A stretch of DNA of 52,820 bases, from positions 1 through 52,820 of the forward strand of contig NZ_JAMTDQ010000109.1 in NCBI RefSeq assembly GCF_023806635.1, given 5' to 3'. Under the pieces are notes generated by a model. The model saw only the letters and a program-made list of their open reading frames with translations, made no database searches and was not told the origin of the DNA. Position 1 is the stretch's first letter, and the number at the start of each line of letters is the position of its first letter. This document shows positions 37,318 through 46,086 of the stretch, one piece after another. This DNA is from Accumulibacter sp. GTDB lineage: Bacteria; Pseudomonadota; Gammaproteobacteria; Burkholderiales; Rhodocyclaceae. Position numbers and translations under genes: made by a program.

Positions 37318-38196
37318 TCACGCTTCGTCGCCGGCGGCGGCACGCGTGCGCTCGGCGATGCCGGCCTCCCAGCCGAGCAGCGCCAGCTTGCGGCTGCTTC
37401 CCCAGCGATAGCTGCCGATCTCTCCCGACTCGCGGATCACCCGGTGACAGGGAATCAGGTAGGCGATGCGGTTGGCCGCCAGCGCACTGCCGACCGCCCG
37501 CTGGGCGTTGGGCGCGGCCGCCCGCCGCGCCAGTTCGCCATAGGAGATCAGCGTACCGGGCTCGACGCGGATCAGCGCCTCCCAGACCTTGATCTGGAAG
37601 TTCGTTCCACGCAGCAGCAGGTGCAGGGTGCCGCGCGCCGGCGTGGCGGGAAAGATGCGGGCCAGCAGCCGCCGCGCCTGCTCGTCATCGCGCACGGTCG
37701 TCGCCGCTGGCCAGCGTGCCAGCAGCTCGGCGAGCATCGCCGGCTCGGCCATCGAGCAGAAGGCGAGATGGCAGACGCCGCGCGCCGTCCACGCGATCAG
37801 TGCGTCGCCGAAGGGGGATGGCGCGAAACCACAGGAGATCTCGATGCCGAGGCCGCCCGAGCGGATCTCGCCAGGCGACAGCGCCTCGCAATGGACCATC
37901 AGATCATGCAGGCGGCTGCCGCTGCTGAGACCGCTGTCGGCCGCCACGGACAGGACGTCGCGTGCCTTCGCCAGTTCGCGCCGGGCGTGTTCCTTGGTCA
38001 GGTACTGCAGGAAGCGCTTCGGCGAGATGCCGGCCCAGCTGGAGAACAGCCGCTGCAGGTGGAAGGGACTCAGGTGCACGGCGGCGGCGACCTCCTCGAG
38101 CGTCGGCTGGGCGCGTGCATTCGCCCGGATGTATTCGATGGCGCGCGCGACGGCGGCGAAGTTGCGCGACTGCTCGTCGAGTTCAGGAGTGGGCAT
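37318..38196 (-). CDS. Ada-like AraC / O6-methylguanine-DNA methyltransferase
   Basis: A 292-residue protein joining an AraC-type DNA-binding domain (residues about 15-105, with VAAAVHLSPFHLQRLFSSWA and GISPKRFLQYL) to an O6-alkylguanine-DNA alkyltransferase domain. The suicide cysteine is in IPCHRV, preceded by VGSALAANRIAYL. The N-terminal zinc-binding phosphotriester-repair domain of E. coli Ada, with its Cys4 site, is absent. This matches the shorter 'bifunctional regulator/methyltransferase' type (E. coli Ada minus about 80 residues). It repairs alkylated guanine and may regulate genes. Its start overlaps the 3' end of a transporter remnant. Confidence 0.92.
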   Translation of the reverse strand: MPTPELDEQSRNFAAVARAIEYIRANARAQPTLEEVAAAVHLSPFHLQRLFSSWAGISPKRFLQYLTKEHARRELAKARDVLSVAADSGLSSGSRLHDLMVHCEALSPGEIRSGGLGIEISCGFAPSPFGDALIAWTARGVCHLAFCSMAEPAMLAELLARWPAATTVRDDEQARRLLARIFPATPARGTLHLLLRGTNFQIKVWEALIRVEPGTLISYGELARRAAAPNAQRAVGSALAANRIAYLIPCHRVIRESGEIGSYRWGSSRKLALLGWEAGIAERTRAAAGDEA

Positions 38197-40711: not shown

Positions 40712-41206
40712 TCAGGCGCCGCCACAGCGGCGGACAAGCAGCGCATCGGCCGACAAGGCGCCACCTCCCCGGGCAACCAGGAAAAGCAGGCCCGCCGCCC
40801 AGGTGCCGTGCAGCGCGTACGCATCCGGATAGACGAAGATCTGGATGACCGCCGTCATGCCGAGCAGCGCCAACGCGGAAAATCGCGTCGCCAGTCCGAT
40901 CAGCAGCAGCAGCGGGAAGAGATGTTCGGCGACTGCCGCCATCGGTGCCGCGACTTCGGGCGCAATGAGCGGCAAGCGGTATTCGTCGCGGAAAAGGTCG
41001 AGCAGCGAATCGGCAAGCCGTGGCCAGCCGAACTCGAACTCGCCGCCGACGATGTCGATGCGCAAGCCCTGCACCTTGGTCTGGCCGGACGACCAGAAGG
41101 TGGCAGCCAGCGCGAAGCGGGCGAGGAAGGCGATCAGCGAGTCGGGGATGCGGCTGAGCAGCTCGACGGACTTGCGCACGAGACAGCGGTCGGCATGGTC
41201 GGTCAT
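40712..41206 (-). CDS. DoxX-family membrane protein of the bufferin cluster
   Basis: A 164-residue membrane protein of the DoxX family with about four hydrophobic segments. It contains LIAFLARFALAATFWSSGQT, an N-terminal DoxX hallmark, and VAEHLFPLLLLIGLATRFSA. DoxX proteins are often found with DUF692/DUF2063/DUF2282 genes. It overlaps the upstream DUF2063 gene by 4 bp (ATGA), so it is the last gene of this four-gene unit. A role in redox chemistry or membrane handling of the metal complex is inference. Confidence 0.9.
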   Translation of the reverse strand: MTDHADRCLVRKSVELLSRIPDSLIAFLARFALAATFWSSGQTKVQGLRIDIVGGEFEFGWPRLADSLLDLFRDEYRLPLIAPEVAAPMAAVAEHLFPLLLLIGLATRFSALALLGMTAVIQIFVYPDAYALHGTWAAGLLFLVARGGGALSADALLVRRCGGA

Positions 41207-41997
41207 GGTTGTTCTCCTTGCTCTCGAGGGGCCTGCCCGATGCCGAGCAGGAGATCGTTGCCGATCAGGAGGCCGAGGGCGGGCGCGGGGTCGAAGGGAG
41301 CCTCTTTCGTCGAGGCTTCCTGCACGGCATCGCCGAGCGCCGCGCCGCGCTGCAGCGCGGCGATGAAGCGGGCGGTTGCCGGCGACACCGCGATCACGGC
41401 AACCGATAGCCCTTGGCGCAGCACCAGTGCGCATTCGGGTTGCAGCGGGTCGACGGCGGCGAGGTCGCCGATGCCCTGGTGCGCGCCCCAAAGGGAAGCG
41501 ATGGCAAACGGCGAGCCGACCAGCAGCAGCGAGGAGTGCAGTTGCAGCCGCAGCCTCGGCAGCATCGCGGGGTCGGCGAGACAGGCGGCGACGGCGGCCA
41601 CCGGCAGCGGCGCGGCATCGGCGGCGTGGAAGGCGAGCAGCCGGGCGTACTCCAGCCGCGCCATGTCGGCAAGGTAGGGCACGCCGGCCGCCGGCGGGAA
41701 AGCGGCGACGAAATCGGCAAAACCATCGCCATACCAGGCCAGAACCGGCGACCGCGGCGGCGACCGGCGCGCGAATTCGTGCGCCATGGCGCGGAAGAAG
41801 GCTTCGCCGACCAGTTGCTGCACCACCGGAAAGCTGTCCGCCAGTGCGTCGATCAGCGAAACGATCACGTTGTTGCGATGGACTCCGAAGCGTTGCGCGG
41901 GGTCGGAGCCGTTCCAGCTGACGAGGCCGGGCGGCGCCGGCTGCGCCGGATCGAGCAGCGCGGCGGCGAAGGCGGCATCGCCGCCGAAGCGGCTCAT
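41203..41997 (-). CDS. DUF2063 protein (BufC-like partner of DUF692 enzyme)
   Basis: A 264-residue protein with an N-terminal DUF2063 domain ([20 protein letters not shown] then [20 protein letters not shown]). This domain acts as a substrate-recognition partner for DUF692-type peptide-modifying enzymes, comparable to MbnC in methanobactin synthesis. The C-terminal half is less conserved and lacks motifs. It overlaps the DUF692 gene and the DoxX gene by 4 bp each. Assignment as BufC rests on family and context. Confidence 0.88.
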
Positions 41998-42908
41998 GCG
42001 GCCACCACGCGCATCGCAGCAGGCGCGCGCAACGCATCCAGGCGCCGGCCGGCCTGCAATGCCTCGGCCAGCAGCACCGGGAAAGGCGGCAGATCGTTGT
42101 CACGTTCGAGCAGCGTCGCCACCGCACCGGTGAAGCGCAGAGCCTCGTCATACAGCGCCCATACCGCTTCGGCCACCGGCGCAGCGTGGCTGTCGATGAG
42201 CAGCGGCGCACCCAGGCTGTCCACATCCCGCGCGAAGCCGGCGAGGTGGATTTCGCCGACTGCCGCCAGCGGCAACGCGCGCAGGTAGGCCTGCAGGTCG
42301 CGCCCGTGGTTGGTGCAGGAGACGTAGGCGTTGCTCAGGTCGAGCAAGAGACCGCAACCGGTGCGCGCGACCACTTCGCCGATGAATGCGGCTTCGTCGC
42401 GATCGGAAGCGGCAAACTCGACGTAGGTGGACGGGTTCTCGAGCAGCATGCGGCGCCCGAGTCGGTGCTGCACGCGGTCGATGTGCTCGCAGACGCGCTG
42501 CAGTGTCACCGAGTTGAACGCCACCGGCAGCAGGTCGTTGTAGTGGTTGCCGCCGTGCGACGACCAGGCCAGGTGCTCGGAAAACGATTCTGGCTGGTAA
42601 CGGTCGAGCAGCGCGGCCAGCCGGTCGAGGTGGGCTTCGTCGAGCGGCGCCTCGCCGCCGATCGACAGGCCGACGCCGTGGATCGACAGCGCATGGTCGG
42701 CGCGGATGCGGCCGAGGTAATGGTGGAAGGGGCCGCCCGGCACCATGTAGTTCTCGGCGTGGATTTCGAAGAAGCCGAGCGCCGGCTTCGTTTCGAGCAC
42801 CTCGAGGAAGTGCTCGGGCTTGAGCCCGACGCCCGCGGCGGCGGGCAGCGACGCCCCGCCGCCGCGCGCGGCGACAACCGCCGCCCGTGGCTTGCCGATG
42901 TCAGACAT
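41994..42908 (-). CDS. DUF692 multinuclear iron oxygenase (BufB-like)
   Basis: A 304-residue TIM-barrel enzyme of the DUF692/MNIO family related to MbnB. Metal-ligand segments are all present: [79 protein letters not shown] and IDSHAAPV. In this family, di- or tri-iron sites oxidise cysteines of a precursor peptide to thiazole/oxazole-like groups. The likely substrate is the Cys-containing precursor encoded 29 bp upstream. The start at 42908 gives the normal family length; longer in-frame starts exist but overlap the precursor gene. Confidence 0.92.
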
Positions 42909-42937
42909 GACGAGGCGCCGGATCCCGGATCCGCCGC

Positions 42938-43249
42938 TCAGGCCTTCTTCTCCTTGAATTCCTTGAGCTGCCCCATGCCGGTCGGCGAGGTCGGCGACGC
43001 CGTCTTCTCGCACGTGCCAGCAGGGACATAGGTCCAGGCATTGCCCTGGTGGTCCTTCGTCGAGCTGCCCGCGCACGAGGTACCGGGACCGGCCTTGCAG
43101 TCATTCTTGCCCTTCATGGCGATGCCGTAGCACTTCTCCTTGGCCGCGTCGGCGGCGATGGCCGGCGCGGCGGCCATGCTCAGGGCAGCCCCCAGGGCAA
43201 GGGCAAGGGCGGCAGCGGAGGCATGGCGGGTGGTGTCGTTCTGATGCAT
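42938..43249 (-). CDS. DUF2282 bufferin-type precursor peptide (BufA1-like)
   Basis: A 103-residue secreted precursor of the DUF2282 family. A signal peptide (residues 1-33, ending PAIAA) precedes a mature region with four cysteines: Cys40 (EKCYG), Cys51 (NDCKAG), Cys59 (TSCAG) and Cys80 (GTCEK), the standard bufferin pattern, and a Lys/Glu-rich tail ([10 protein letters not shown]). In described bufferins the two central Cys are modified by the DUF692 enzyme and the product binds copper in the periplasm. AAGGAG lies before the ATG. It heads the four-gene unit bufA-bufB-bufC-doxX. Confidence 0.9.
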
Positions 43250-43314
43250 GGTGAGACTCCTTCTCGATCGGTCAAGTGGGTCGGTGGACCATTCGCGGCA
43301 GCGTGGTCCGCTCA

Positions 43315-43343
43315 TTGGACGAACTGATCGACGAATCCTTACA
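43315..43343 (-). promoter_or_regulatory. Candidate ECF-sigma-type promoter of the bufferin cluster
   Basis: On the minus strand TGTAAGG (43343-43337) and CGTC (43321-43318) are separated by 15 bases, resembling the -35/-10 pattern of ECF sigma factors, many of which use a TAA-containing -35 and a CGTC -10. The predicted start would be about 60 bp before the precursor ATG. No ECF sigma gene lies in the window, so the assignment is tentative. Confidence 0.3.
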
Positions 43344-43654
43344 GATGCCGACGGGCATTGGCTGCGGGCCCCGGCGCGGCTTGGGTCGCGGTGTAAAGTG
43401 ATCCGACAGCTGCCACGGGACAGACCGTGACCTATTTCTCGTCACCCGTTCGCGTCGCCACGGCGACCACCACCACCTCGCCTGGCGCGCCCGGCGCTGC
43501 CGCGCTGCGGACAGATGGCCCAAGCACTCGGGTGCTCGCCCAGGGCAATCCCTGTCGGTCGTCAGCCGCGTGTCGTTGCGCACCCGGCGCAACAGGTTGC
43601 GTCCGCAAGGGAACCGTGGTCGGCCCCGACGGCTCCGGCAGCCGTCACGGCCGC

Positions 43655-44209
43655 TCAGCGCCGGAAGCGGACGGTCAGATCCGCCACGCGCTGCCCGAAC
43701 AGGCGCGCGGTCTCGAGATCTCCCGGCAGCATCTCGTCCGCGCCACCGTCGGCGGGCGAGGTGGCCATGGCACCGCAGAACGAGCCGACGTAGTTGAGGT
43801 CGTTGCGCTGCGCGGCACTGGTGTTGGCGGGCATCATGCCGGTGCCGACCCAGACGCCGCCGTGCTGCATGGCGAGCGTGAACAGGTAGTGCAGGGTGGA
43901 CAGCTTGTCGCCGTTCATCGTCGCGCTGTTGGTAAAGCCGGCAAACAGCTTGTCCTTCCACACCTGGGCGAACCAGGGCTTGCTCGACGCATCGGCAAAC
44001 TTCTTGAACTGCCAGCTGACGCTGCCCATGTACGTCGGGCTGCCCATGATGATGGCGTCGGCGGCGGCGAGGCATTCCCAGCCGCCGGCGGGCAGGTTGC
44101 CCTTGGCGTCGATGGCAACCAGTTCGGCGCCGGCACCTTCGGCCACGGCCTGCGCCATGCGCAGGGTGTGGCCGTAACCGGAATGGAAGACAACGGCGAT
44201 CTTGCTCAT
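43655..44209 (-). CDS. Flavodoxin-family NAD(P)H:quinone/FMN oxidoreductase (WrbA-like)
   Basis: A 184-residue flavodoxin-fold protein. It begins MSKIAVVFHSGYGHTLRMAQ, with the FMN-phosphate loop SGYGHT, and has IIMGSPTYMGSVSWQFKKFA, the FMN ring-binding loop of the WrbA/NQO type. Later TSAAQRNDLNYVGSFCGAMA is shared with a frameshifted remnant at 1950-2095. The protein probably reduces quinones by two electrons and protects against redox cycling. AAGGAG precedes the ATG. It lies 28 bp downstream of the pirin gene on the same strand. Confidence 0.9.
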   Translation of the reverse strand: MSKIAVVFHSGYGHTLRMAQAVAEGAGAELVAIDAKGNLPAGGWECLAAADAIIMGSPTYMGSVSWQFKKFADASSKPWFAQVWKDKLFAGFTNSATMNGDKLSTLHYLFTLAMQHGGVWVGTGMMPANTSAAQRNDLNYVGSFCGAMATSPADGGADEMLPGDLETARLFGQRVADLTVRFRR

Positions 44210-44237
44210 GGTGAATCTCCTTGTGCGGGTTGGCAGA

Positions 44238-44939
44238 TCAGGGGGCGAGATCGAAAACGAGGACTTCGGCGTCGTCCCCGTCGCCGAGTTCGAGGTGCTC
44301 TTCAGCGGCCACCGATGCGCCATCGCCGGCACGCAGGAGGTGGCCATTGACGATCAGGCGGCCGCGGACGAGATGCACGTAGGCCTTGCGCGCCGGGTCA
44401 AGCGGCAGGCTCGCCGATTCCGCGCCGTCGAACAGCCCGGCGTGGATCGCGGCATCGGCATGGATGGTCAGCGAACCGGCGGCGCCGTCGGGCGAAGCGA
44501 TCAGTCGCAGGCGGCCGCGCTTTTCGAGGGCGGCGAAGTGCCGCTGTTCGTAGCCCGGTTCGATTCCCTTGCAGCGTGGCTCGATCCAGATCTGCAGCAG
44601 ATGGGTAGGCTGGTCGGGCGCGTGGTTGAACTCGCTGTGGCGGACCCCGCGTCCGGCGCTCATCCGCTGCACGTCACCGGGCGGGATGTCGGTGCCGTTG
44701 CCGAGGCTGTCCCGGTGCCCGAGCAATCCGGCGGTGACATAGGTGACGATCTCCATGTCGCGATGGCCGTGCGTGGCAAAGCCGCCAGCGACCGCGATCA
44801 GGTCGTCGTTTAGGACCCGCAGGTTGCCCCAGCGCATGTACGCCGGGTCGTGATGGTCGGCAAACGAGAACGAGTGATGGCTTTTCAGCCAGCCGTGGTT
44901 CGCGTGGCCGCGGTCTTCTGCTTTCCTGATCTGCAGCAT
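44238..44939 (-). CDS. Pirin-family bicupin protein (YhhW-like)
   Basis: A 233-residue double-cupin protein of the pirin family. The metal-binding histidines and glutamate of the N-terminal cupin are visible in FATHGHRDMEIVTYV and in VRHSEFNHAPDQPTHLLQIW. Several bacterial pirins (YhhW) have quercetin 2,3-dioxygenase activity. AGGAGA precedes the ATG at 44939. It is probably co-transcribed with the flavodoxin gene downstream; the pair suggests quinone/flavonoid-type redox stress handling. Confidence 0.92.
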   Translation of the reverse strand: MLQIRKAEDRGHANHGWLKSHHSFSFADHHDPAYMRWGNLRVLNDDLIAVAGGFATHGHRDMEIVTYVTAGLLGHRDSLGNGTDIPPGDVQRMSAGRGVRHSEFNHAPDQPTHLLQIWIEPRCKGIEPGYEQRHFAALEKRGRLRLIASPDGAAGSLTIHADAAIHAGLFDGAESASLPLDPARKAYVHLVRGRLIVNGHLLRAGDGASVAAEEHLELGDGDDAEVLVFDLAP

Positions 44940-44998
44940 GGGCTTCTCCTGTGATGGCAGCGGCAAAGCGCTGCTCATCGATCGATGGTCGTGCTGAG

Positions 44999-45139
44999 AG
45001 GTTGTGAAGAAATCGTCGCGAGCAGGCCGAGATGCAAGGCGCGATGGAGCGAACGACGAGACATATCAAGTGGATAGGCGAGGAGTGAGCGACTGAGCAA
45101 CGCAGCAGATCGGTCGCGCAGTAGCTTTATTCACAACCT
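44999..45139. mobile_element. 141-bp MITE-like non-autonomous element
   Basis: The element is bounded by exact terminal inverted repeats AGGTTGTGAA (44999-45008) and TTCACAACCT (45130-45139), with weaker pairing further inside, and flanked by direct repeats CTGAG (44994-44998 and 45140-45144) consistent with a 5-bp target duplication. There is no transposase gene, and no convincing coding frame inside. It sits in the gap between the pirin gene and the dioxygenase gene, close to the pirin start, where it could carry or disrupt a promoter. A parent element is not in this window. Confidence 0.8.
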
Positions 45140-45279
45140 CTGAGTGCCATGGCGGCGTCGGCGCCCGGCACCCCGACCGCGGCCGACGCGTCGCTGCCGC
45201 CGCAGCCAGTGCGCACACCCCCCGTGATGGCGTGGGTGCCGATCGCATCCGTCGCGCCTGCCGCCCGTTGCACGCGCCG

Positions 45280-46086
45280 TCAGGCGCTGACGGGGGCAAA
45301 GGAATAGGCATCCATGGCGATGACGAAATCGTCAACACCGGCATGGATGCGCTTGACCCGGGGCAAGTCGCCGGCCGCCCCGAGCGCGACGAAGAGCGGC
45401 AGCAGGTGCTCCTCGCTCGGATGCGCGGCGACTGCGCCCGGCGCCTGCCGGCGGTAGTCGAGCACGGCCGCCGTGTCGCCCGCCTGCAGGCGCTCCGCCA
45501 GCCAGGCCGGGAACTGGCGGACATAGGCGGGGATCGCGCCGCCGTCGCCTGCCGCCCGCTGGTAGTCACGCAGGTTGTGCGTGACGTTGCCGGAAGCGAT
45601 GACGAGAACGCCACGGCGCAACAGCGGTGCCAGCGCCCGGCCGAGCAGCCACGCCTGTTGCGGGCCGCCAAGGCTCTGCAGCGAAAGCGGAATGACCGGT
45701 ACGTCCGCCTGCGGAAACATCAACCGCAACGGTACCCAGACACCATGGTCGAGACCGCGCGCAGGCGCCCGTTCGGCCGCCATCCCGGCAGCGCGGATTG
45801 CCGCGAACACTTCTTCTGCCACCTCGCGGCAACCGGTTGCCGGATAGCTGATCGCGTACAGCGCCGAAGGAAAGCCGTGAAAATCGTGGATGGTCAGCGG
45901 CCGGTCGGCGAAACCGACCGTCGGCACGGCGGTATCCCAGTGCGCGCTGACGATGACGATCGCGCGCGCTGGCGGCAACGTGCGGGCGAGGTCGGCGATG
46001 GCTGCGCCGGCAGCGCCTGGTCGCAGCGCGAAGGTCGGTGCGCCGTGCGGTACGAACAGTGCGGGTTGCGTCTGGCTTGTTTTCAT
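45280..46086 (-). CDS. DODA-type extradiol dioxygenase (YgiD-like)
   Basis: A 268-residue class III extradiol ring-cleavage dioxygenase of the 4,5-DOPA dioxygenase family. Metal ligands appear in LFVPHGAPTFAL (His14), IVSAHWDT (His49), the ISYPATG/GLDHGVWVPL loop and IASGNVTHNL. The enzyme would cleave a catechol-type ring with non-haem iron or zinc. It is divergent from a LysR regulator whose start lies 96 bp away, so it is the likely target of that regulator. The substrate is not predicted. Confidence 0.9.
   Translation of the reverse strand: MKTSQTQPALFVPHGAPTFALRPGAAGAAIADLARTLPPARAIVIVSAHWDTAVPTVGFADRPLTIHDFHGFPSALYAISYPATGCREVAEEVFAAIRAAGMAAERAPARGLDHGVWVPLRLMFPQADVPVIPLSLQSLGGPQQAWLLGRALAPLLRRGVLVIASGNVTHNLRDYQRAAGDGGAIPAYVRQFPAWLAERLQAGDTAAVLDYRRQAPGAVAAHPSEEHLLPLFVALGAAGDLPRVKRIHAGVDDFVIAMDAYSFAPVSA

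Follow-up and report, generated by a model that had tools for sequence, protein, structure and literature searches.

A Buf1-type bufferin cluster in Accumulibacter, and a predicted ECF sigma promoter that resembles codons of related sigma genes

The DNA considered here (the window: 52,820 nucleotides of one contig from Accumulibacter sp., a polyphosphate-accumulating wastewater lineage) carries four closely packed genes on its minus strand. A first-pass annotation had placed them at 40712..43249, and these coordinates are exact: the ATG of bufA is at 43249 and the stop codon of doxX at 40712. The genes are bufA1 (42938..43249), encoding a bufferin-1 (DUF2282) precursor of 103 aa with a conserved C-terminal tail; bufB1 (41994..42908), for a multinuclear non-haem iron oxidative enzyme (MNIO, formerly DUF692) of 304 aa; bufC1 (41203..41997), for a DUF2063 partner protein (PME-type 1) of 264 aa; and doxX (40712..41206), for a DoxX-family membrane protein of 164 aa. 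The tight packing claimed for them holds: bufB/bufC and bufC/doxX overlap by 4 bases (ATGA), and the gap between bufA and bufB is 29 bases. So does the count of four cysteines in the precursor, at residues 40, 51, 59 and 80; judged by eye, its N-terminus has a Sec-like signal, with a charged start, a hydrophobic run and an AIA-AD site.

The identities first proposed for the genes were borne out, as all four proteins exceed the curated Pfam cut-offs: BufA for DUF2282 (PF10048; 87 bits, cut-off 22.4), BufB for MbnB_TglH_ChrH (PF05114; 331.8 bits, cut-off 25), BufC for DUF2063 (PF09836; 94.7 bits, cut-off 27.2) and the DoxX protein for DoxX (PF07681; 57 bits, cut-off 23.6). The bufferin-type reading stands as well. 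BufB passes the NCBIfam threshold for MNIO_BufB (NF050167; 362.7 bits, cut-off 310), this MNIO maturase adjoins a precursor gene, and the set of DUF2282 precursor, MNIO, DUF2063 partner and DoxX is given as the core of bufferin clusters in PMC12452194 (published work is cited here from excerpts). Matches of BufC to HvfC (NF050145) and of the DoxX protein to HvfX (NF050144) in NCBIfam were weak and below cut-off. The length of BufC is near the 250-260 aa usual for DUF2063-RRE partners (PME-type 1), and its PF09836 match is over the cut-off; the PDB, searched by sequence and by profile, returned no match for it that would confirm the RRE half. A PDB search with BufA gave chance-level matches only. 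For BufB, the sequence search put 3BWW first; 8HCI, whose label is DUF692 family protein, and chains of MbnB came next. Across 19 aligned sequences, the window's included, BufB residues H77, H112, E157, N158, D190, N193, H201, H221, D239, H241 and E268 are invariant; these are candidate metal ligands.

The precursor was also considered as a Buf2 type, and this was rejected: it has four cysteines as against six or twelve, and scores 26.3 bits with BufA2 (NF050166), where the cut-off is 60. No BufA1 equivalog in NCBIfam matched it. The window cluster is a standard Buf1 bufferin cluster, a fresh instance of an already known system. DUF2282 is found in 45 of 121 genomes of the same family, and in single copy in the window's own genome. 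The order precursor-MNIO-partner-DoxX recurs in 40 of 51 fetched relative loci (rows counted by hand), which excludes a chance arrangement; in the other 11, of which two lie on short contigs, DoxX is missing or the precursor and DoxX stand away from an enzyme gene. All but one of the 57 family BufA sequences have four cysteines past residue 20, the odd one (L083) being a partial frame whose match in its genome has an internal stop. Four loci (L069:1888-2499, L073:5980-7074, L078:4506-4826 and L079:10032-11228) also encode, a few kilobases from an ordinary Buf1 precursor, DUF2282 proteins in which an apparent membrane anchor replaces the cleavable signal.

About 20 residues beyond Cys80 form a tail (window 42941-43009) that is present in all 26 close family precursors and in none of the 31 others. 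The Pfam DUF2282 match stops at residue 85, ahead of most of this segment; its pattern fits 76 of 80 named loci, and the other four are near variants by eye. The tail might serve for recognition or as a follower segment. Among named relatives the closest precursor segments are those of L154 and L155, 95% and 94% identical to the window's BufA; the named relatives put the window within or beside Candidatus Accumulibacter. Contig C6 of the window's own genome holds another MNIO locus (L001:1152-3086, plus strand), with a BufA2-type precursor, an MNIO and a DUF2063 partner. Its precursor passes the BufA2 cut-off (NF050166; 89 bits, cut-off 60); therefore, both bufferin types are carried by one genome. 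The two clusters have the MNIO, the DUF2063 partner and a similar type of upstream site in common; they differ in the precursor, and no DoxX match was found in the 17 kb fetched around the second.

The first-pass annotation mentions neither the tail nor the Buf2 cluster, which lies outside the DNA that it covered, nor this upstream site, which is the next element of the locus. A predicted ECF sigma promoter, TGTAAG-N16-CGTCCA, occupies 43316..43343 (minus strand), with its first base 94 bases ahead of the bufA start codon; the sequence is TGTAAGGATTCGTCGATCAGTTCGTCCAAT. The prediction draws on recurrence: among the 56 family loci, 22 have TGTAAG-N15-17-CGWCYA no more than 300-320 bases ahead of bufA, and the 80 named loci include 32 that do, whereas sequences shuffled by base pairs gave averages of 0 and 0.025 (one of the 57 family sequences was left out, its upstream part being too short, and the two sets share some genomes). 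The strict motif is absent from 34 of the 56 and 48 of the 80, and was found at none of 17 Pseudomonas loci. The 4.47 Mb of the window's own genome hold three occurrences of TGTAAG-N15-18-CGTCNA, as against one for a reversed control, and two of these are the sites of the window's Buf1 operon and of the Buf2 precursor (TGTAAG-N17-CGTCTA); as the pattern was chosen with both sites already known, the count describes rarity and is not a blind prediction. The third, TGTAAG-N18-CGTCGA (contig C7:26120-26149, minus strand), stands upstream of a different, secreted-looking protein and is probably there by chance. The window site resembles ECF sigma promoters and is predicted to act as one; a comparable ECF promoter is described at a Sinorhizobium DUF692 operon (PMC6180224).

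Family-wide matches to the motif were tried as a count of the regulon and set aside: in many genomes they do not exceed the reversed control, and many of them sit inside ECF sigma genes. A Cys-Lys pair occurs at one spot of region 4.2 in 21 of 60 sigma genes compared, and 18 of these 21 contain TGTAAG-N16-CGWC, where codon usage in the same genes predicts 0.68. The embedded motif is made of codons of what is presumed to be the promoter-reading helix of the sigma factor. The cysteine is TGT in 19 of 21 genes in which lysine follows versus 7 of 38 in which another residue does, and 23% is the figure for the rest of the genes. In the 16 genes with the narrowest consensus, the three codons that depart most from background, out of 65 columns, all belong to this stretch: TGT, the TCN within CGTC and a serine of the spacer; columns elsewhere come close behind. 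In the sigma tree, rows with the narrower CGTC form are spread over three separate groups, each with support. A downstream MNIO on the same strand accompanies 13 of 18 motif-bearing sigma genes versus 1 of 42 without the motif (family set; Fisher 2e-8, kinship uncorrected). Where a sigma gene directly precedes the Buf1 precursor, the site lies within the sigma gene in seven of eight family loci: there only in L064, L066, L072 and L082, and both there and near bufA in L049 (in a wider form), L053 and L080; in L036 it is near bufA only.

The window has no sigma gene beside bufA, and yet what precedes the gene resembles such an arrangement. A leader with a ribosome-binding site (43250..43300, minus strand) can be aligned to the spacer between anti-sigma gene and bufA in relatives that have the pair in cis; a block at 43314..43346 (minus strand) is like their sigma region 4.2 codons, and is probably a relic of a lost sigma gene. 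In L064, L066 and L082, genes for an ECF sigma and a small anti-sigma (zf-HC2 in L066) lie directly upstream of bufA. Against the sigma codons of L064, 27 of 33 bases match (score 42, where 100 shuffles reached at most 40); against the anti-sigma/bufA spacer of L066 there is a 52-column block (score 52, where 100 shuffles reached at most 47); a third alignment scores 36, with 34 for the best of 100 shuffles. Three of the 80 named loci (L156, L174 and L183; L174 and L064 are probably one genome) have a sigma gene directly upstream on the same strand, with the motif inside it in all three and a proximal motif in none.

Comparison with the closest relatives locates an edge at this place. The window is near-identical to L154 and L155 from TGTAAG to bufA; the few hundred bases upstream do not align, and the genes beyond that divergent stretch match again. 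By BLAST, the leader shared with L154 begins exactly at the site, and that shared with L155 begins 8 bases before it; both run through bufA. In L154 a 95-base piece like the 3' end of a pirin gene (L154:3806-3900) lies directly before the predicted promoter, a hint that this edge was rearranged, and in L155 138 bases of the window's spacer recur farther upstream. The simplest reading of the window's leader would be a loss of the sigma and anti-sigma genes that spared the promoter; we rate this a little better than an even bet.

A movement of the operon as a whole, giving it different places in the three Accumulibacter genomes, was considered and dropped, since the window's pirin/LigB-type sequence lies upstream in all three. 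The window genes concerned (43655-46086, minus strand) are a flavodoxin/WrbA-like gene, a pirin and a LigB-type dioxygenase gene; the pirin and LigB-type identities come from Pfam and were assigned for the window genes only. Both relatives match the window over its pirin and LigB genes, and L154 alone over most of the flavodoxin gene; L155 has a frame for a PEP-CTERM-like protein at that place. Elsewhere in the window, an AraC-type DNA-binding domain is fused to an O6-methylguanine methyltransferase, an Ada-like arrangement (37318-38196, minus strand).

Another way to understand the likeness is that the TGTAAG/CGTC site before bufA arose independently, and resembles the sigma codons because the same sigma reads both. 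We take this as a real contender, with a chance somewhat short of even. In its favour, the spacers of many bufA promoters in relatives are unrelated, and the relic alignments rise only narrowly above shuffles. Against it, the sigma codons of L066 share the preceding ATC and 9 of 14 spacer bases with the window site (hand count). The three cis-sigma loci were the only ones of eight aligned to beat the best of 100 shuffles; the other five did not. Finally, the sigma is in cis in the two best family BufA matches (L066 and L064) and in the high-identity named loci L156, L183 and L174, and the window's leader can be aligned with those of L066, L156, L174 and L183.

A different objection supposes that the embedded motif is no promoter, its codons being kept for reasons of translation, RNA structure or protein. 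Gaps in the association with bufferin genes offer this some encouragement. Of the five motif-bearing exceptions in the family set, one has only 273 bases of contig after it, while about 2 kb in L098, L100 and L137 show no BufB or MNIO. In an order-wide sample (26 sigma genes, from 29 new loci less 3 in genomes already counted; rows are best matches to one motif-bearing query), the motif is present in 19 of 26, and a BufA or BufB match within flanks of at most 1.5 kb accompanies 3 of these 19 vs 2 of the 7 without it, so the link between embedded motif and neighbouring bufferin genes was not confirmed in that sample. Even so, we think it unlikely that codon choice is explained without a promoter. 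In both halves and in spacing the embedded motif agrees with the bufA promoters; the cysteine before lysine in the neighbouring anti-sigma is TGC in 7 of 7, and the next cysteine of the sigma is TGC in 14 of 16 genes with the narrowest consensus; and L064, L066, L072 and L082, with sigma in cis, have no proximal bufA site better than shuffles. The cysteine of the Cys-Lys pair is TGT in 21 of 23 cases in the order-wide sample. Among the matches listed in searches of literature on bufferins, MNIO clusters, their sigma control and promoters within sigma genes, none describes a bufferin operon driven from within an ECF sigma gene; the closest, in excerpt, concerns a sigV promoter within a different upstream gene (PMC13171946).

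A candidate reader of the site before bufA lies in trans. One close homologue of the cis sigma factors is encoded in the window's own genome, on contig C4 (L089): it is 59% identical to a cis sigma (the next best match has E 1.3e-9) and matches TIGR02943 with 255.9 bits (cut-off 162.2). A zf-HC2 anti-sigma gene adjoins it (NF052368; 70.8 bits, cut-off 50). No bufferin match was found in the 3.5 kb around it. Counting against it as the reader, that stretch showed no matching site either, and the recognition helix of the C4 sigma differs from the other form, CAELSMSSNN versus CKELQISSSN. The C4 sigma is predicted to be the one that reads the bufA site: it would act in trans on the promoter 94 bases before the gene, restrained by its zf-HC2 anti-sigma, and the Buf2 operon would be under the same type of site. 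Sigma genes of this kind are present in 33 of 45 genomes with DUF2282 vs 28 of 76 without (Fisher p 1.5e-4, kinship uncorrected), and missing, at E 1e-25, from 12 of the 45. More tentatively, and with slightly more doubt than belief, one may suppose that a family of ECF sigma genes in Burkholderiales holds the promoter of the operon downstream of each within the helix codons, and that Accumulibacter, on losing the sigma and anti-sigma genes ahead of bufA, kept this fragment, which a cousin sigma acting in trans now reads as the promoter of the bufferin genes.

Control of the sigma-F type (ECF16) was rejected, as the genome has no PF06532 match. PF06532 is the NrsF-type anti-sigma family, which we take to be the former DUF1109; a Caulobacter positive control matched in the same search. 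The Caulobacter operon CC3254-CC3257 (Buf1) otherwise has the same four kinds of gene, DUF2282 precursor, MNIO, DUF2063 partner and DoxX, in the same order. The DUF2282/DUF692 operons of Caulobacter are described in an excerpt of PMC3511200 as under an ECF sigma, with promoter GTAACC-N16-CGAA; the window differs in its -35 (TGTAAG) and -10 (CGTC) and in having its sigma and zf-HC2 anti-sigma elsewhere. The gigPABT-rpoQ-rsqA region of Cupriavidus metallidurans contains the same four gene types. It is copper-induced and an ECF sigma pair is suspected; in the excerpt of PMC10304878 no gig promoter is identified, and control by RpoQ is assumed without proof. There rpoQ is divergent from gig, unlike the window cluster with its predicted promoter and no adjacent sigma. 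Deletion of rpoQ raised gig expression rather than stopping it (excerpts of PMC10304878 and PMC13192273), which counts against a sigma-driven explanation for the window. Captophorin/oxazolin (EGKCG) clusters share the enzyme pair and the expected 5-thiooxazole chemistry (PMC13097082, in excerpt) and differ in their repeat-rich precursors. In six relative loci (L105, L110, L138, L139, L141 and L142), operons with Cys-repeat precursors (EGKCG-like, by eye) come after sigma genes with an embedded CGTC motif; as they follow such genes, the control may span precursor families.

The peptide chemistry can be proposed by homology. BufA would be made with a Sec signal sequence; BufC would recognise it and present it to BufB, an iron enzyme, which would oxidise the central Cys51 and Cys59 to 5-thiooxazoles; a Cys40-Cys80 disulphide would form after this step; and the mature peptide would be exported, to bind excess copper in the periplasm. 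The DoxX protein would be an accessory membrane protein of unsettled role. By the excerpt of PMC12452194, modification in Buf1 falls on the inner pair of cysteines and the outer pair is joined by a disulphide; this rule agrees with the earlier guess of Cys51 and Cys59 for the window's BufA. MNIOs with DUF2063 partners have been suggested to yield 5-thiooxazole broadly (PMC13097082). Heterocycles at residues 51 and 59, copper binding and export are thus homology-based expectations for the window system, and no copper gene was found among 20 other window proteins scanned (47 frames were called). That the peptide serves mainly against another metal or redox stress (gold, chromate, mercury, or sulphur stress via DoxX), copper being incidental, seems improbable: the Legionella GIG promoter answers gold as well as copper (PMC5413113), the Caulobacter sigma-F operons were found under chromium stress (PMC3511200) and MerC-Buf1 fusions exist (PMC12452194), but Caulobacter Buf1 is reported to chelate copper, as Cu(I) and Cu(II), through its thiooxazoles and to aid growth in excess copper (PMC12452194). 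As the best explanation of the whole, a Buf1 operon for a modified copper peptide, with an ECF sigma promoter read in trans, is one that we hold with good confidence.

The cluster adds one bufferin system in a polyphosphate-accumulating wastewater lineage. The control region weighs more than the peptide cluster, and the likely control is the new part: the predicted site offers a precise, testable candidate promoter for beta-proteobacterial bufferin operons. If the embedded site is active, the same DNA would encode a DNA-reading helix and carry the sequence that is read, which would constrain the evolution of such regulators.
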